From Chloroflexota bacterium (GTDB lineage: Bacteria; Chloroflexota; Anaerolineae; Promineifilales; Promineifilaceae), in NCBI GenBank assembly GCA_018004935.1, contig JAGNBF010000039.1, positions 1 to 55,523 on the forward strand: DNA of 55,523 nt, given 5' to 3'. The notes under the pieces are model-generated. The model made no database searches and had not been told where the DNA came from. It saw only the letters and a program-made list of their open reading frames with translations. Shown here piece by piece: positions 1 through 55,523 of this stretch; position 1 is the first letter of the stretch, and the number at the start of each line of letters is the position of its first letter. Both the position numbers and the translations under genes were made by a program.

Positions 1-403
1 TGAAACCTCCATTGAACGTAGCCAGGAGTATACCGGTGTCCTTGTGTTCCGCAGGTATCTGCCCGCGGCCGCGTGGCCCATCGGGCTGTGACGGTTCCTG
101 CGACCCCAGGACAAAGTGAAGTTGGGTCTGGGTCAAATCTATGGCGACCACCACCACCAGCGCAAAAGGGCGTTCCGGGTCGGGCTGGAAGAAGGTGCGA
201 TAAGCGACAGCCTGATTAGCCTCACCAAACAGATAGGGCGACCAGACATCTTCCCCTTCAAGCTGACCCAGGGTCGCGGCCGCGGGCGGTTGCCAGGGGG
301 TTGGGGTAGCCGTGGCTGTGGGGTGGGGGGTGGCCGTTGATGGCTGTGGGGTGGGGGTAGTGTCGGATGCGAGGCGAGTGAATGTGGGACGCGGCCGCGC
401 TGT
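1..403 (-). CDS. Phosphodiester glycosidase-like (NAGPA/DUF2233) protein, 3'-partial
   Basis: The minus frame from 403 runs off the left edge. It encodes a Thr/Pro-rich linker (TPTPQPSTATPHPTATATP) and then a domain with ALVVVVAIDLTQTQLHFVL and LLATFNGGF. That pattern matches the start of the phosphodiester glycosidase family, in which FNGGF opens the substrate-site region. The family cleaves GlcNAc-phosphodiester type bonds or related exported polymers. A TGA at 404-406 lies just ahead and no ATG, GTG or TTG start with a signal peptide is visible in this frame, so the 5' end is either frameshifted in the C-rich linker or decayed. The family call comes from motif memory only. Two GCGGCCGC sites fall inside. 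Confidence 0.5.
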
Positions 404-13442: not shown

Positions 13443-13983
13443 AGATGCCTCTTGTTGTTTATTCTGTTTGTCGTTCAGCCAGTACAAAGAGAGTTGCGGC
13501 ACAACCACATCTAAACGCAAAGTTGACGCACGTGGAATTAGCGCGAGCAATTGCCCAGGCCATGGCCTACATCATGTTGCCGAATCATTCTTTTTGCTCC
13601 GGCAAAACATTAAATTACCAAAAATATTGGCTTGGCTTTACGACATGTTAGGGCTTATTTAGATGTAGAAGTGATTTCAAAACGGCTTGTGGTTAAGCGT
13701 TTGTGGCACAGTAGGATTGTAGCATTGCCTTATGGCTTGTCAATAACAGGAATTACAAGGAGTGCGGGTCAAATCTGTGGTTGTAGAACAAGATGCCATC
13801 TGGTTCGAACAAATTCGGCACTTTGTCCTTGCGTCGGTTCACAACACATCTCCCCATTCGAGCCTGTCCAGCCAATGATCCTGGCTCAAACGGGGTAGGG
13901 GGGACGGTTCACCGGTCAATGAAAAAGAGGATGTACGCGGCCGCAAACCATTCGTTCCTTCCTCAAATTCTTTGTTGTCAATG
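13443..13983. other. Gene-free stretch upstream of the EEP cassette
   Basis: No convincing gene on either strand. The AT-rich part 13590-13720 is the likely promoter region for the minus-strand cassette, but I cannot name -35 and -10 boxes. An inverted pair TTGCCG / CGGCAA lies near 13577-13608. One GCGGCCGC occurs at about 13937. Confidence 0.5.
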
Positions 13984-14300
13984 GGGAACGCGGCCGCACC
14001 ATCTGCCCATCCTCTTCATCCGTGTGCCACCTATCCGTGGCTCAGAAATTGTAAATGGTAAACGGTAAATGGTGAACGGTGAATGGGGGAACGCGGCCGC
14101 ACCATCTGCCCATCCTCTTCATCCGTGTGCCACCTATCCGTGGCTCAGAAATTGTAAATGGTAAACGGTAAATGGTGAATGGGGGAACGCGGCCGCACCA
14201 TCTGCCCATCCTCTTCATCCGTGTGCCACCTATCCGTGGCTCAGAAATTGTAAATTGTAAATGGTGAATGGTGAATGGTGAATGGTGAATGGGGGAACAG
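13984..14300. repeat. Tandem ~100-bp repeat with heptamer arrays and GCGGCCGC
   Basis: Three units share GGGAACGCGGCCGCACC, then CATCTGCCCATCCTCTTC and ATCCGTGGCTCAGAAATT, then a variable run of seven-base units (GTAAATG, GTAAACG, GTGAACG, GTGAATG). The marker ATCTGCCCAT starts at 14001, 14104 and 14200, so unit lengths are 103 and 96, differing by exactly one heptamer. The end of the ATPase/TPR pseudogene reads through this array and gains a repetitive tail. Confidence 0.85.
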
Positions 14301-15370
14301 GGGAACGCGGCCGCAAACGCCGTTTCTCCCATCATTGTCCGCACTGTCTCCAGGGTACTTGCGCGAGCTTCCTGCCACACCCACGGCAAAGGTGAACCGG
14401 TCTGCGCCCGAATTTTCTCCGCGGCCGCGTACAAAATCGCCATCCGCTCCCATTGTTGTTTAGTCAAGGCAATCGTTCCTAATGATTCCAATACACTGGG
14501 CAACCCCCACCGCTCCCGCAAATCGGCCAGGGCCTGCAAACATTGCCGGTACAACCGTTCCGCTTCCGCCAGTTGCCCTTCGGCCAGGGCCACATTGCTC
14601 AAATTCCACCGGGAAAAGTTGATGGCCCAGGGTTCGCTCAAGGCCTGTTTCAGCGCCAACGCTTCTTCCTGATAGGCGCGAGCGGCCACCAGATTCCCCT
14701 CGCACCAGGCCAGCAGACCCAGGTAAGTCAAGGATTCGGCCACATCCCGTTGGGCCACGGGGCCAAGTTCGCGGCGCAGTGTCAGGCTCTCCTGGTGGTA
14801 GGCGTGCGCGGCCGCGAACCGCTTCACCGCCGTATTCAGCCAGCCTAAATGGTGCAAAACAAAGGCCACCCCCGCCTTATCACCAAGCCCCCGGTACAGA
14901 TGTAACCCTTCCTGCAACACGGTTTCGGCCACCGTGTAATCACCCAGTTCATCAAGCCACGATTGTTGTTTGTCCGTCAACAACGCCTGGGAAGCGTGGA
15001 GTGCCAGTTGGGTAAACCAGGCCAGATGACGCTGGCGCACATGGGTTTCTTCACCGGACAACCATAATTTGTCCAGGCCATATTGCCGGATGGTGGTCAA
15101 TAGTTGATAACGAGGCCCGGTGGCGACCACGAGCGATTTGTCAACCAGCCGGGTCAAACTGTCCAGCACGAGGCTGGATGAATCAAGGCAAACGGCTTCC
15201 GCGGCCGCGAGGGTAAAACCCCCAGCAAAAACCGACAAGTGCCGGAACAAGGTCTGTTCGTCTGACTCTAGTAAATCATAGCTCCAGTCAAGGGCGGCAC
15301 ACAGGGTTTGCTGGCGGGGCAAGGCGGCCCGGCTTCCCCCGGTCAAAAGGGCAAATCGGTCATCCAGTTG
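14042..15370 (-). pseudogene. AfsR/LuxR-type ATPase-TPR regulator, truncated remnant
   Basis: Open from 15370 (after TGA 15371-15373) with LDDRFALLTGG, ALDWSYDLLESDEQTLFRHL and LSVFAGGFTLAAAEAV. This is the segment following the NB-ARC domain in large regulator ATPases. TPR repeats follow (YHQESLTLRRELG, YQEEALALKQAL). The P-loop half is missing, and SWLDELGDYTVAETVLQ looks like an internal deletion that fuses the post-ATPase domain straight to late TPRs. Its natural end is near ETAFAAAFP, which falls on a GCGGCCGC; the last ~80 residues are translated tandem repeat. It is probably not functional. Confidence 0.7.
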
Positions 15371-18603: not shown

Positions 18604-18942
18604 GTGTGAGGTCTCGTTTCGTTTGAGAATTAAGGCCCAATTTATTGTTGACTCTGGGTGAGACGGGACCGATGGTGAACAAAAGTATAGCCAGGAGAGG
18701 TAAGAACTGCCAACGAGCGTGGATGATCCCGGCCCTGTCTGGTTATCGTGTTCGCCGACGAACAGCAACAACGAGTCGAAGGACAGGCAGAATCAGAAAG
18801 CAGGCTGGTATCAGGTAGGGGTAGACACTGGCCAAGGCCAGAAAAGTCCCATCTGAGCGGGTTTGGCGATTCGCGGCCGCGCCCTTACTCCCCTTACTTG
18901 TTGCCTTGAACGTGAACTGGGCTTAAGCAGGTTCGGGCACAA
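18604..18942. other. Gene-free stretch
   Basis: No gene with convincing family signal on either strand. One GCGGCCGC at about 18874. The segment ends where the duplicated block shared with 22.3 kb begins. Confidence 0.4.
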
Positions 18943-19105
18943 GGCTTCGTATAGGACGCGGCCGGAGAGGGTGTCGCGGCCGCGTACACCCTCACAAGCG
19001 CCAACTGGCAGACTGGCGACGACATGGGGATGCGGGGAACGGGCAGAGGGGTGGGGTGGTGCAAGGGTATTACGAGAATGGGACTGATGTGGGAAAGGGG
19101 TGGCA
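18943..19105 (+). repeat. Degenerate repeat family R5, copy 1 (duplicated at 22.3 kb)
   Basis: From CTTCGTATAGGACGCGGCC to GATGTGGGAAAGGGGTGG this segment matches 22321-22509 closely. Part of it (CGCCAACTGGCAGAC, then GGGCAGAGGGGTGGGG) also recurs at 38.6 and 47.2 kb. Translated it gives NWQTGD-like pieces, remnants of an ORF of unknown family. Confidence 0.7.
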
Positions 19106-19224
19106 GAGGTAGTTTGCGACCTGCACTCTACCCCGCAGTTTTGTATCGTCTTTCCCAAATTGCCCGTGATCTTTTTCCCTCTCAACCGTTATTATCTTTA
19201 GACGTCTACATCAGGAGAGTGACA

Positions 19225-19773
19225 ATGCCTGAACCAACCGAGCTTCGTGTGGTTGAAGCCGCCCGGCGGGGCGACGCGGCCGCGTTAACTGCCCTGTACG
19301 AACATTTTAAGCAGGATATATTCCGCTTCATCTTTTACCGTGTCCACCAGCGGGACGCGGCCGCAGACCTGACCGGCGATGTCTTTGAGCAAATGATCAA
19401 AGCCTTGCCCGACTACCGGCCCGAACGCCCCTTTGCCGCCTGGCTGTTCCAGATTGCCCGTCACCGGGTCATTGATTACTGGCGACAACAACAGATGCGC
19501 CAGGACGGGCCGCTGGATGAAGCCCTGCCCGATGCGGCCGCGTTGCCGGAACAGCAAGTGGCCCATCAGTTGACGGTAGAGCGGTTGGTGCGGGCACTGC
19601 AATATTTGAACGCAGACCAGTGTGATGTCTTGCTTCTGCGCTTTGTGGCCGGGATGCACGTGGCAACCGTCGCCACCACCCTGGACAAAAGCGAAGGGTC
19701 GGTGCGGATGTTGCAACAACGCGCCCTGGAAGCATTACGCACCCGGTTACTGTTGGGAGAGGAAATGCCATGA
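19225..19773 (+). CDS. ECF-type RNA polymerase sigma factor
   Basis: 182 aa from ATG 19225, with AGGAG nine bases upstream. Region 2: ALTALYEHFKQDIFRFIFYR, DLTGDVFEQMI and FAAWLFQIARHRVIDYWRQQ (the -10 recognition helix). Region 4: LNADQCDVLLLRFVAGMHVA followed by LDKSEGSVRMLQQRALEALR (HTH for -35). The linker contains PDAAALPEQQ. It is paired by an ATGA stop/start overlap with the FecR-domain gene, the usual sigma/anti-sigma arrangement, so the membrane protein likely controls its release. Three GCGGCCGC sites lie inside, all read as Ala-Ala-Ala. A broken second copy lies at 22505-22790. Confidence 0.9.
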   Translation: MPEPTELRVVEAARRGDAAALTALYEHFKQDIFRFIFYRVHQRDAAADLTGDVFEQMIKALPDYRPERPFAAWLFQIARHRVIDYWRQQQMRQDGPLDEALPDAAALPEQQVAHQLTVERLVRALQYLNADQCDVLLLRFVAGMHVATVATTLDKSEGSVRMLQQRALEALRTRLLLGEEMP

Positions 19774-22084: not shown

Positions 22085-22509
22085 TTGGCCGAACTCGCGG
22101 CCGCGTGCCCGAGGCACACCCCGCGATAGATTTCTCCAGGGACTCTTGTACCACCAGACGAAACCTGGCTGGCCTGGGGTTTGGTCACATGGCTCGAAGG
22201 GTGTGGGGGTTATCACGGCCGCGAGTAACGTCCGGTGTGGAGTCTGCGGCCGCAACGCGGTTATGGGCGTCTGCATGGGGTGAGGGGAAAGATGGGGGTT
22301 GTGCCGTGTGCTGGGCAAATATTACTTCGTATAGGATGCGGCCTGGGCCTGGTTGCCGTTGTACGGCTAGGGTGGGGGCGGTGCGGCCGCGTACACTCTC
22401 ACAAGCGCCAACTGGCAGACTGCGACGACATGGGGACGCGGGGAACGGGCAGAGGGGTGGGGTGGTGCAAAGGTATTACGAGAATGGGACTGATGTGGGA
22501 AAGGGGTGC
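22085..22509 (+). repeat. Degenerate repeat family R5, copy 2
   Basis: The first half (ACCAGACGAAACCTGGCTGG, CCTGGGG, then a CACATGG block) matches 46735-46900; the second half (22321-22509) matches 18943-19105. Frames are broken throughout, so this is a decayed ORF of unknown family rather than a gene. Confidence 0.65.
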
Positions 22510-22790
22510 GACGCGGCCGCGTTAACTGCCCTGTATGAACATTTTAAGCAGGATGTATTCCGCTTCATTTTTTACCGGGTCCACCAGCGGGACGCGGCCG
22601 CAGACCTGACCGGCGATGTCTTTGAGCAAATGATCAAAGCCTTGCCCGACTATCGGCCCGAACGCCCCTTTGCCGCCTGGCTGTTCCCGATTGCCCGTCA
22701 CCGGGTCATTGATTACTGGCGACAACAACAGGTGCGCCAGGACGGGCCGCGCTGGATGAAGCCCTGCCCGATGCGGCCGCACGCCAACAC
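22505..22790 (+). pseudogene. Chimeric fragment of the ECF sigma factor gene
   Basis: Nearly identical to 19265-19545 (region 2 of the sigma factor, ALTALYEHFKQDVFRFIFYR to IDYWRQQQVRQDGP). The start region is missing, replaced by R5 repeat DNA. A CG insertion after GACGGGCCG shifts the frame, and sigma similarity stops exactly at the GCGGCCGC at 22773-22780, after which unrelated coding sequence begins. The left joint is within about five bases of the GCGGCCGC at 22513-22520. It cannot encode a working sigma factor. Confidence 0.85.
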
Positions 22791-22811
22791 CTGCTCCTGG
22801 CCCAAACCGCC

Positions 22812-23153
22812 ATGTACGAAATCGCTGTCCCCCTTGTCTCCCCGGATCGGGCACGGTTTCTGGCCCAACTCCCCCTCAACCAGCAGATTCAGGCGGCTCT
22901 GGCGGTCTGGCAGAAGCAGGTGACGGTGCAGTTGGTGCGGGCGGATGTCCCATTGGGGCGCAAACGCACCCCGGCTGATTACGTCACCATTACCTGGACC
23001 ATCTCAGCCCTGGAAGATGAAGCCATTGCCGATAAGACGGCCCGGCGGCAGGCGGTGGTGGCGAGAATGTTGAGGGACGCGGCCGCGCAAAACGCCGCTC
23101 CCACCGATGCTGATCTCGCCACTGCTTTGGGCGTCAGCCCACAAAAGCGTTAA
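22812..23153 (+). CDS. Winged-helix regulator-like fragment, C-terminal HTH incomplete
   Basis: 113 aa from ATG 22812, but the frame is open back to the seam at 22780 (ARQHLLLAQTAMYEIAVPLV), so the true gene is 5'-truncated. The middle LGRKRTPADYVTITWTISA and the end ARRQAVVARMLRDAAAQNAA followed by DADLATALGVSPQKR look like the linker and the first half of a recognition HTH in DUF1670-like or similar regulators; the natural protein would continue with a second helix. Likely non-functional debris. The family name is a guess. Confidence 0.4.
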   Translation: MYEIAVPLVSPDRARFLAQLPLNQQIQAALAVWQKQVTVQLVRADVPLGRKRTPADYVTITWTISALEDEAIADKTARRQAVVARMLRDAAAQNAAPTDADLATALGVSPQKR

Positions 23154-31285: not shown

Positions 31286-31588
31286 CCGCTCCACATATCG
31301 CCCTGGTGTCTGCATATTCGTCCAGCCCCTGGCATCGCGCAATACAAACGGGTTACTTTTCTTGGCCGCATGGGTGGCCCACGTGTGGCGCAGGTCGTGG
31401 GGGCTGAGTTCCCAGATGCCCAGGATGTCCCGCCCCAGGATTTTGATGCGGCCGCCCACCCCCCGTACCGACATCACCTCATCAGTTAGCTTTTCATTTT
31501 TACGGCTGCCACGAAGGAGTGTGCCCCGCGGCCGCAAATACGGTTTATACCCTACCATCGCCTGCACAATATCCCGCGACAATTCCAT
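31272..31588 (-). pseudogene. Tyrosine recombinase (XerC/D-like), C-terminal fragment
   Basis: The minus frame contains LSPHDLRHTWATHAAKKSNP (the HxxR catalytic box) and GWTNMQTPGRYVERSNVT (the Tyr nucleophile region, GRY). The N-terminal core-binding and first Arg parts are missing; the reading frame upstream (YLRPRGTLLRG) begins at a GCGGCCGC and does not look native. A second copy of only the tail lies at 38423-38505. Confidence 0.75.
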
Positions 31589-38505: not shown

Positions 38506-38574
38506 GCCACTATACCAGACCTACTACGTCTGGCAGTTGCCCAACAATTACTTCGGCCCTCAGACTCACACGAG

Positions 38575-38800
38575 TCGCGGCCGCTACATAATCGCCAACT
38601 GACAGACCTGCGATAACAAGGGGGTGGGGAACAGGCAGAGGGGTGGGGTGGTGCAGGGGTATTTTGGGAATGGGGCTAGTGCGGGGAAAGGATGGGGGAG
38701 ATGCGGCCGCGGGGTGGCGTATTGGTCGGGGAAAAAGGGTAGCGGGGTGGTGGTGTGGTGGGTGATGGAGGAGGTGGGGTGAGAGGGTGGAACGGAGTTG
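38575..38800 (+). repeat. Degenerate repeat family R5, copy 3
   Basis: GCGGCCGCTACATAATCGCC, then CAACTGACAGACC, GGCAGAGGGGTGGGGTGG, GGGGAAAGG and GCGGCCGCGGGGTGGCG follow the same order as 47140-47340. Strongly G-biased on the plus strand; no intact ORF. Confidence 0.65.
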
Positions 38801-46734: not shown

Positions 46735-47395
46735 CTCTATCCTTTGCGGCACTCGCGGCCGCGTGTCAGAGGTACACCCGCAACCGATTTTTCCAGCCAC
46801 TATTTCACCACCAGACGAAACCTGGCTGGCCTGGGGCTTGGGCACATGGCTTGAATGGACATGGTGGTCGGCGCTGGTGATCGCGGCCGCGAGTGTCATC
46901 ATCGCGGGCTAGAAGGCCTGCGACAACAAGGGAATGGGCAGGGGGAGGGGGTGGCTGTCGAACGCAACCTGGCGGTGAGGTCTGCCGTCGGGCCGTCTGT
47001 GCCCAGGAGCAGGCGTGGCGGCAGGGGCGGGCGTTGTTTCCTTTTACGGACTTCCGTGGCAAGAAGGGCAATGCGGGGCAGACCTACCACGCCTGGCAGT
47101 TGCCGAATACCTACTTTGGCCCACACGCGCACTTGGGCGCGGCCGCGGACGCCACCATAATCGCCAACTGGCAGACCTGCGACACAAAGGGGACGCGGAA
47201 CGGGCGGGTGGGTGATTTGGTTCAGAGGTATTTTGGGAATGGGGCCAGTGCGGGGAAAGGGTGGATGAAGTGCGGCCGCGGGGTGGCGTATTGGCCGGGG
47301 AAGAAGGGACGAAGGGTGGTGGTGTGGTGGGTGATGGAGGAGGTGGGGGTAAACGCGGCCGCGACACCATTCCGCCTGCACGACAATGCGTCCTG
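46735..47395 (+). repeat. Degenerate repeat family R5, longest copy (decayed ORF)
   Basis: Several frames show protein-like pieces that shift by indels: PPDETWLAWGLGTWLEWTWW, FRGKKGNAGQTYHAWQLPNT, ADATIIANWQTCDTKGTRNG and VAYWPGKKGRRVVVWWVMEE, ending in NAAATPFRLHDNAS and a stop at 47394. It may descend from a replication or mobile-element gene; I do not recognise the family. Five GCGGCCGC sites. Parts recur at 18.9, 22.1 and 38.6 kb. Confidence 0.55.
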
Positions 47396-52226: not shown

Positions 52227-54722
52227 ATGTTTGCCAAAACTAGTCTACGCACCAAATTATTGCTGGCCTTCCTGGGGCTGGTTGTGGTTGCCACGGGTCT
52301 GGTTTCCTTCTTCAACAGCCGCGTCATTCAGGCCCAACTCATTCGTGACGCGGGCGAAAGTTTGCACAATCTGGCCCAGAGCAAAGCCCAGGCGGTGGGT
52401 GATCTCATCGCCAAACAAGCCGATACGTTGCAGGCGTTGAGTGTCAATCGGGTGCTCCAGGAGCAATTGGAGCAACTGGCGGAACTACCTGCACCCACCC
52501 CCACCGAACGAGCGGCGCAGGAACAGGCCTGGCTGACGGGCCGTTCCAACGACCCATTGGTTAAACTCATCCTCGAGAACGAAAGCAGTGCCGAACTTCT
52601 GCGCTTCCGCAACACCTTCCCCGACAACCGGCAGATGCTGATCACCGACGCGCAAGGGTATCTCATCGCCGCCACCAACCAGACCCCAGCCTTACAGTAT
52701 GCGGATGAAGCCTGGTGGCAGGCGGCGTATCGGGAAGGGCGGGGAGGTCTTTACATCGGGCAGGCCCCGGACGCGGCCGCGCTCATCATCGCCCTGCCCA
52801 TTTATGGCCGCCAGACCCAGGTGGCTGTCGGTGTTTTGCAAACGACCATTCCCCTGAACGTGCTGTTGGACATTTTCCTGGAAGAGGCCACCGGACAGCC
52901 GGGTGCGGTAGATTTACTCCTGTCTGGCGGGGAAGTGGTGCGGCCACAAGCCAATGGTTTTATCGCGGCCGCGTCACCCACCCTCGACCTCACCCCCCTT
53001 ATCACCGGCACCCAACCCTACGGCGAAATGATCTACCCGGAAACCGCCAGCCTGGTCAGTCCGGCTCCCGTTTCATCCTTCGACCCTGGGGCACGCCTGC
53101 CTATCGCCGCGCTGAACTGGTACGTCATCGCTTATCAGGATCGGGACGATGTGTTACAGGTGGTGCAAACATCCCTGCAAACCACCTTGATGACCGGTGT
53201 TGGCGTACTGCTCCTGGCGGGTGTGCTGGCCTTTGTGGTGGCCCAACTGCTCACTATCCCCATCATCCGCCTGACGATGACGGTGCGCCAGCTTGCGGCC
53301 GGTGATCTGACCGTTCAGGCCCCGGTGCTGGTTCAGGACGAGATTGGCACGTTGGCGGAGACGCTGAACTGGATGACGGGCCGGTTAAGGGAAACGGTGG
53401 AGAATGTGCAGGAACGCGGCCGCATGTTGCAGGCCAGTGCCGGTGTCGCCCGTACCGCTTCCGCCACCCTGGACCTGGACACCGTCTTACGAAGTTCCGT
53501 CCAACAAATTTGTGAACAGTTCGGCTTCTACCATGCCTCGGTTTTTCTGGTGGAGCCGGGTAGCCAGATGGCTGTTTTGCGCGAAACGACCCAGGAGAGT
53601 GGGGCCGCGCTTAAGGCCAGCCACCACCAACTCGAAATTGGCTCGCGCTCACTCGTCGGGACGGCCACCGCCACCCGCCAACCGGCCATCGCTCAGGATG
53701 TCGCCACCAGCCCATTGCATTACAAACAACCCTTGCTCCCGGCCACCGCCGCCGAGGCCGCCTTCCCATTGGTGGTCGGGCCAACGCTTTTGGGGGTGCT
53801 GGATGTACAGAGCAAACAGGCGCATGTCTTTACGCCCGATGTCGTCACCGCGCTCCAGACATTAGCCGATCAGATTGCCGTCGCCGTGCAGAACGCCCGC
53901 CTTTATGAAGAACAGAGCCGCACCGTAACCCGCCTGGCCGAAGCCGACCGGCTCAAGACGGAGTTCCTGGCGAGTATGAGCCACGAACTGCGTACCCCGC
54001 TCAATTCCATCATCGGTTTCTCGCAAATTATGCTGAAAGGGATGGATGGCCCCTTGTCGGAGATGCAACGGCAGGATATTGAGACGATTTACACCAGCGG
54101 TCAGCATCTGCTGGGCATCATCAACAATTTGCTGGACCTGTCCAAAATTGAGGCGGGTATGATGGAGTTATCCCCGGAAGCCGTGGATGTGAAACCGCTT
54201 GTGGAAATCACGCTGGCGACGTTGGTAGGGTTGACGAAAGAGAAGCCGATTCGTGTCTACCACACCCTGCCGGACGTTTTGCCCCCCGTGCTGGGGGATA
54301 AGACCCGTCTGCGGCAGATTTTGCTGAACCTGATTTCTAACGCGGCCAAGTTTACGGATGAGGGGGAGATTGAGATCGCGGCCGCGTACAACGATCAATT
54401 TGTCACCCTGCGTGTGCGCGACACCGGCATCGGTATCGCCCCGGAAAAACAGGCCGAGATATTCGAGCAGTTTACCCAGCTTGATAACTCCAACACCCGC
54501 CGCTACGAAGGGACCGGTTTGGGTCTGCCCATCACCAAAAGATTGGTTGAACTGCACAACGGCACGGTCAACGTGCAAAGTCGGCCTGGGGCTGGCGCTA
54601 CGTTCACCGTTGCCATTCCTCGTTACCAGACCACCTTCAGCACCAACGGCCACAATGCGGCCGCGCTCGAATTGGCGGAGTCATTTGAACCAAGTCTCTC
54701 CTGCGAAAATAGCCACGGATGA
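52227..54722 (+). CDS. Sensor histidine kinase (Cache-HAMP-GAF-HisKA-HATPase)
   Basis: 831 aa from ATG 52227 (MFAKTSLRTKLLLAFLGLVV); no strong Shine-Dalgarno. Helix ~10-32, extracytoplasmic double-Cache-like domain ~35-320, second helix ~325-350 (MTGVGVLLLAGVLAFVVAQL), HAMP ~350-400, GAF ~420-575, HisKA with [20 protein letters not shown] (phospho-His), ATPase with ILLNLISNAAKFTDEG, DTGIGIAP and EGTGLGLPITKRLVELHNG. The last eight residues come from repeat DNA (CTCCTGCGAAAAT, as in the 105-bp array). It follows pstS on the same strand, so it may report on phosphate or a related signal (inference). No response regulator is adjacent. Confidence 0.85.
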   Translation: MFAKTSLRTKLLLAFLGLVVVATGLVSFFNSRVIQAQLIRDAGESLHNLAQSKAQAVGDLIAKQADTLQALSVNRVLQEQLEQLAELPAPTPTERAAQEQAWLTGRSNDPLVKLILENESSAELLRFRNTFPDNRQMLITDAQGYLIAATNQTPALQYADEAWWQAAYREGRGGLYIGQAPDAAALIIALPIYGRQTQVAVGVLQTTIPLNVLLDIFLEEATGQPGAVDLLLSGGEVVRPQANGFIAAASPTLDLTPLITGTQPYGEMIYPETASLVSPAPVSSFDPGARLPIAALNWYVIAYQDRDDVLQVVQTSLQTTLMTGVGVLLLAGVLAFVVAQLLTIPIIRLTMTVRQLAAGDLTVQAPVLVQDEIGTLAETLNWMTGRLRETVENVQERGRMLQASAGVARTASATLDLDTVLRSSVQQICEQFGFYHASVFLVEPGSQMAVLRETTQESGAALKASHHQLEIGSRSLVGTATATRQPAIAQDVATSPLHYKQPLLPATAAEAAFPLVVGPTLLGVLDVQSKQAHVFTPDVVTALQTLADQIAVAVQNARLYEEQSRTVTRLAEADRLKTEFLASMSHELRTPLNSIIGFSQIMLKGMDGPLSEMQRQDIETIYTSGQHLLGIINNLLDLSKIEAGMMELSPEAVDVKPLVEITLATLVGLTKEKPIRVYHTLPDVLPPVLGDKTRLRQILLNLISNAAKFTDEGEIEIAAAYNDQFVTLRVRDTGIGIAPEKQAEIFEQFTQLDNSNTRRYEGTGLGLPITKRLVELHNGTVNVQSRPGAGATFTVAIPRYQTTFSTNGHNAAALELAESFEPSLSCENSHG

Positions 54723-54772
54723 AGGAAACACGGATAGGAAGAAACACGGATGAGGATGAAAATTGTGGCGTT

Positions 54773-55523
54773 GTTTTCATCCATCTTGGTGCGTCGCGGA
54801 CCCATGGGGAACTCCTGCGAAAATGTAGGGCGATTTGGTAAATCGCCCTGTGGACAATTTACCAAATTGTCCTACAGGTTTTCATCCATCTTGGTGCGTC
54901 GCAGACCCATGGGGAACTCCTACGAAAATGTAGGGCGATTTGGTAAATCGCCCGGTGGACGATTTACCAAATCGTTCTACAGGTTTTCATCCATCTTGGT
55001 GCGTCGCAGACCCATGGGGAACTCCTACGAAAATGTAGGGCGATTTGGTAAATCGCCCTGTGGACAATTTACCAAATTGTCCTACAGGTTTTCATCCATC
55101 TTGGTGCGTCGTAGGCCCATGGGGAACTCCTACGAAAATGTAGGGCGATTTGGTAAATCGCCCTGTGGACAATTTACCAAATTGTCCTACAGGTTTTCAT
55201 CCATCTTGGTGCGCCCCAGACCCATGGGGAACTCCTACGAAAATGTAGGGCGATTTGGTAAATCGCCCTGTGGACAATTTACCAAATCGTCCTACAGGTT
55301 TTCATCCATCTTGGTGCGTCGCAGACCCATGGGGAACTCCTACGAAAATGTAGGGCGATTTGGTAAATCGCCCGGTGGACGATTTACCAAATCGTTCTAC
55401 AGGTTTTCATCCATCTTGGTGCGTCGCAGACCCATGGGGAACTCCTACGAAAATGTAGGGCGATTTGGTAAATCGCCCTGTGGACAATTTACCAAATTGT
55501 CCTACAGGTTTTCATCCATCTTG
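54773..55523. repeat. 105-bp tandem array of double-hairpin units (family F), runs off the edge
   Basis: CCATCTTGG starts at 54781, 54886, 54991, 55096, 55201, 55306, 55411 and 55516: seven full units of exactly 105 bp. Each has TGTAGG, hairpin GGGCGATTTGGTAAATCGCCC (9-bp stem), hairpin GGACAATTT-ACC-AAATTGTCC, then CCTACA, forming a cloverleaf-like fold. No ORF. The array continues past the window. Confidence 0.95.

Follow-up and report, generated by a model that had tools for sequence, protein, structure and literature searches.

The window analysed here, a 55,523-nt stretch (positions 1-55523 of contig C186 in genome G000), belongs to a fragmented assembly of 7.98 Mb in 229 contigs. It carries an intact ECF sigma factor gene at 19225-19773 (forward strand, as are all features below unless indicated), with matches to Pfam Sigma70_r2 and Sigma70_r4 and to the NCBIfam ECF sigma-70 entry. 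A copy of the repeat R5 lies upstream of this gene (18976-19102). A second R5 copy (22383-22508) is followed by a sigma gene fragment, which is a pseudogene (22508-22780), and the palindromic word GCGGCCGC (hereafter the octamer) recurs throughout, with 85 occurrences in the window where 1.6 were expected. A preliminary description of this DNA held that a copy of the sigma gene at 22505-22790 is joined to R5 DNA. Alignment of the 18.9-19.6 kb region with the 22.3-22.8 kb region (global alignment of 18900-19545 with 22250-22785) confirmed both copies: the R5 parts are 96.9% identical, and the sigma fragment is 96.4% identical to 19268-19541, with the blastn alignment starting at 22505. The fragment has neither promoter nor start codon, and contains a 2-bp insertion at about 22748-22749. 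Absent from it is a 165-bp segment (19103-19267) that at the parent-like site comprises the R5 end, the sigma promoter, the start codon and the first codons. R5 and sigma gene occur in the same order at both sites, 165 bp further apart in the parent, and diverge from 18976-19541 to a similar degree (3 substitutions in 127 bp of R5; 8 substitutions in 276 bp of sigma, plus an indel). This points to one duplicated block. The genome holds at least 11 members of the R5 family, including 18976-19102, 22383-22508, 38574-38711 and 47138-47271 in the window; most carry two octamers about 126-138 bp apart, and the octamer at 22383 belongs to this family.

At the left joint (22508-22509), R5 identity stops at 22508 and sigma identity begins at 22508, 4-5 bp before the octamer at 22513. 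The distance agrees with the earlier proposal that R5 is joined within about five bases of this octamer, but the implied joining by means of the octamer probably does not hold. The sister R5 copy (18976) has GGCAGAGG instead of the octamer at this place, and the same sigma gene follows 165 bp further on; therefore, the left joint is best read as one end of a 165-bp internal deletion of the duplicated block, and not as an octamer-by-octamer join. We estimate that roughly one in ten random joints would fall this near an octamer, given that there are three in 546 bp of the sigma gene. Some ambiguity is attached to this reading, because in 8 of the 11 R5 copies a second octamer is located about 126-138 bp into the element, near the place of the octamer at 22513, and an octamer joint of earlier date, since obscured by minor changes, retains a small probability. 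Both ends of the fragment would then be octamer joints, the left one having arisen between the second octamer of R5 and the sigma octamer at 19276 and having been obscured by later indels. This we regard as doubtful: the sister R5, 97% identical, has no such octamer and itself precedes the sigma gene, sigma identity in the fragment extends 5 bp to the left of the octamer, and alignment to an R5 copy through its octamer needs a 4-bp deletion plus substitutions.

The right joint is of a different kind. Sigma homology extends through the octamer at 22773-22780 and no further, and the sequence from 22773 to 23139, fused to the sigma fragment, is the C-terminal part of a TPR/HTH protein gene and likewise a pseudogene. 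A single close copy of it exists genome-wide, C132:16721-17087, the C-terminus of an intact gene in which TPR, DUF1670 and HTH were found; the window sequence is 89% identical to it, aligning to C132:17087-16721 with about 11% divergence over 367 bp. Three-way alignment placed the octamer in register in the sigma parent (19534-19541, in a D-AAA-L frame), in the chimera and in the TPR parent. The sigma parent reads ...CTGCCCGAT-GCGGCCGC-GTTGCCG, the chimera ...CTGCCCGAT-GCGGCCGC-ACGCCAACACCTG and the TPR parent ...GGGGATGTC-GCGGCCGC-GCGCCAGCACCTA. Both parents read the octamer in the same Ala-Ala-Ala frame. They share 9 bp, GCGGCCGCG, at 22773 and no flanking homology; the chimera keeps the octamer, followed by A in place of G. 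Thus, the claim that the copy switches to an unrelated gene exactly at this octamer was borne out, and 22773 is a true octamer-by-octamer joint, with the short identity between otherwise unrelated parents that characterizes microhomology joining. No octamer is present at the far end of the TPR fragment (23139).

Other truncations in the window had also been said to coincide with the octamer. On the reverse strand, an octamer at 14307-14314 lies where an ATPase/TPR remnant ending in FAAAFP meets a tandem array (13983-14314), and an octamer joint at this site is plausible, since the octamer occupies the same place in a paralogue (C64:5449), within FAAAW, and the array units start with it. This array consists of about 100-bp units, each opening with the octamer, and begins at that of the ATPase gene; it may have arisen by slippage between octamer-containing repeats. 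A second array, at 54668-55511, has 105-bp units with inverted repeats (TGTAGGGCGATTTGGTAAATCGCC) and belongs to a family that is widespread in the genome. The integrase truncation placed near 31530 proved to be wrong. The octamer at 31528-31535 (reverse strand) lies within the fragment, and homology to an intact integrase from a relative (G010) runs through it to about 31621; a breakpoint at 31528 was consequently rejected. One further case, additional to those of the preliminary description, is the octamer at 391-398 (reverse strand), which ends a gene fragment with homology to C39:223-621; at this place C39 reads GCAGCCGC, one mismatch away, and an octamer joint is plausible. The examples first put forward thus comprise one clean octamer fusion, one plausible joint, one probable internal deletion and one mistake.

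The abundance of the octamer is a property of the entire genome. There are 12,040 copies of GCGGCCGC in the 7.98 Mb and 2 of the reversed word, a density of 1,509 per Mb, which lies within the range of about 500-2500 per Mb given for highly iterated palindromes (HIPs; PMC4390886). Its abundance and palindromy place the octamer among HIP-like words. In a 2.39-Mb sample, 3,205 of the 3,570 octamers (~90%) lie within ORFs of at least 120 aa, and 60% of those read GCG GCC GC, that is, Ala-Ala. Among one-base deviants, GTGGCCGC occurs 76 times and GCGGCCAC 62 times, against 30-34 for changes at the end positions; as raw counts, free of any expectation, these do not favour the first or last positions. 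Several C5 and N4/N6 methyltransferases are encoded in the genome. A search of part of the literature did not turn up GCGGCCGC as a described iterated palindrome, which is weak evidence. Genome G016, of the same family, is equally lopsided (1,462 copies versus 2 of the reversed word). Outside the octamer, several palindromic hexamers are nearly absent from the 2.39 Mb (GTCGAC, 5; GAGCTC, 5; CTGCAG, 11; GCCGGC, 16; GGGCCC, 26), and GCAGC/GCTGC stands at 8-9% of expectation in the same sample; this scarcity suggests restriction or repair pressure. A repeat with the stem GGTTATCGAGC/GCTCGATAACC and the octamer at its centre is found on contigs C3, C58, C74, C84, C90 and C112.

If this word provided the microhomology by which gene pieces are shuffled, as had been suggested, joints throughout the genome should be enriched in it. 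Breakpoints were analyzed in the 2.39-Mb sample, which represents 30% of the genome. A first profile of distances to the octamer had a peak at distance 0 (29 versus about 6 per 5-bp bin), which was discarded because a few repeat families caused it, namely R5, a 106-bp tandem repeat and a hairpin repeat; hence, clustered or independent joints were tested instead. A chimeric joint was defined as two unrelated homologies that abut, and the null was obtained from shifted positions. The octamer was present at 14 of 1737 chimeric joints, against 20.1 (sd 4.0) in the null, and at 6 of 817 deletion joints, against 10.4 (sd 2.8). There is therefore no octamer excess at either class of joint in this sample, and the comparison of breakpoints with random positions, proposed earlier as a check, revealed no clear preference for the octamer. 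The proportion of clusters with switched rather than continuous flanks was likewise similar at the octamer (ratio 0.28-0.35) and at offsets of 60-300 bp (0.22-0.31). These joints lie mostly in non-coding repeats, which leaves little power for genes alone, and at the available power the claim of genome-wide shuffling is not supported.

Low-copy and protein-level subsets gave a slight signal. Low-copy homology ends carried the octamer in 8 of 90 cases, against about 3.4 expected (Poisson P about 0.02); under looser thresholds the count was 15 of 223, where about 8.8 were expected (P about 0.03). As the test was run with a number of thresholds and subsets, all of them reported, not too much should be read into these marginal P values. 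Without the contig that generated the hypothesis (C186), the counts fell to 5/78 (P about 0.10) and 12/204 (P about 0.09), with P at about 0.09-0.2 overall, and the excess is thus weak and not significant. Only 27 low-copy coding chimeric joints were obtained, and the octamer occurred at 2 of them, both in the window (null 1.0). Truncations at the protein level coincided with the octamer in 29 cases, against 17.9 (sd 3.8), a number to which repeats and the window itself contribute.

A coincidence of joint and octamer can also be judged against how often unrelated genes share this word. Of the words shared by random gene pairs, those containing the octamer make up 6% at 8 bp, 38% at 10 bp, 52% at 12 bp and 70% at 14 bp or more; for the sigma and TPR genes, they account for 39 of the 87 shared words of at least 8 bp. 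The octamer is therefore one of the long identities that unrelated genes most often have in common. Any process that joins DNA at short identities will often land there, and since the octamer supplies 38-70% of the chance identities of 10-14 bp, generic microhomology joining suffices to account for the joint.

It is likely, in our judgement, that the locus is a small pseudogene island produced by ordinary duplication and illegitimate recombination, with no need for an octamer-specific system. That the R5-plus-sigma block and the tail of the TPR/HTH gene adjoin is directly observed; the steps that led there can be proposed. The block at about 18976-19541 would have been duplicated. The sigma end of the copy would have been joined to a TPR paralogue, older and diverged, through template switching or microhomology-mediated recombination over the shared 9 bp, and 165 bp would have been lost from the copy, earlier or later than the TPR fusion, at a short imperfect match rich in G. 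The copy would have decayed afterwards. Counting against this explanation are the weak low-copy excess, the surplus of protein-level truncations, the second octamer in most R5 copies and the further octamer ends at 391 and 14307.

Some of the same observations would fit an octamer that actively promotes rearrangement. A nuclease, of a mismatch-repair or restriction-like type for instance, would nick or cut it, and the broken ends would join at another octamer, so that gene pieces are shuffled in frame. The exact joint at 22773, the plausible ones at 14307 and 391 and the low-copy excess point in this direction. So do the proposal that HIP1 promotes rearrangements, made after the smtB deletion (Gupta 1993, cited in PMC6331805), and work cited in PMC4390886 that links HIP1 to excision and to site-specific recombination. 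We consider such an activity unlikely: the chimeric and deletion joints are without excess, the flank-switch ratio resembles that of the control offsets, and many octamer joints are already predicted by the abundance of the word among shared identities. A restricted form, in which the octamer would be a preferred site of breakage or template switching in low-copy genes of this lineage, perhaps through methylation-linked nicking, with the Ala-Ala bias starting some fusions in frame, is kept in view by the weak low-copy excess and appears equally improbable. An assembly or library artefact, through a chimeric contig or NotI linkers, was rejected as highly improbable: GCGGCCGC is the NotI recognition site and the assembly is fragmented, but the copy number, the location and frame bias of the octamer in ORFs, the divergence of both arms from their parents and an overlap of 9 bp, too short for an assembly join, speak against it.

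On the preferred reading, ordinary duplication and illegitimate recombination, the fusion resembles microhomology-mediated joining as known in bacteria, with a 9-bp shared word at the joint and no flanking homology; it differs from it in general in that the shared word is the commonest octamer of the genome. Gupta et al. in 1993 reportedly described a smtB deletion at HIP1 within one locus in Synechococcus PCC 6301. As there, a rearrangement joint lies at an iterated palindrome inside a gene; unlike that deletion, the joint studied here fuses two unrelated genes and has left only a pseudogene. HIP1 (GCGATCGC) of cyanobacteria (PMC4390886) is, like GCGGCCGC, a GC-rich palindromic octamer with about 1,500 copies per Mb, found mostly in coding DNA, far above expectation, and with a proposed link to rearrangement. 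In contrast to HIP1, the present word has a GGCC core and occurs in a genome outside the cyanobacteria of that study, the text of which does not contain it. Alternate HIPs accompany matching methyltransferases (Elhai 2015, PMC4390886); the methyltransferases present here are at most candidates for such a partner.

At this locus the fusion of two genes at an iterated palindrome, a type of word familiar above all from cyanobacteria, can be followed clearly in a three-way alignment. The quantitative test indicates that octamer joints are about as frequent as the abundance of the word predicts, which argues against taking octamer coincidences as a shuffling mechanism. The analysis also documents that a large genome carries a strong word of the HIP type, GCGGCCGC, which would be kept abundant for some other reason than recombination.
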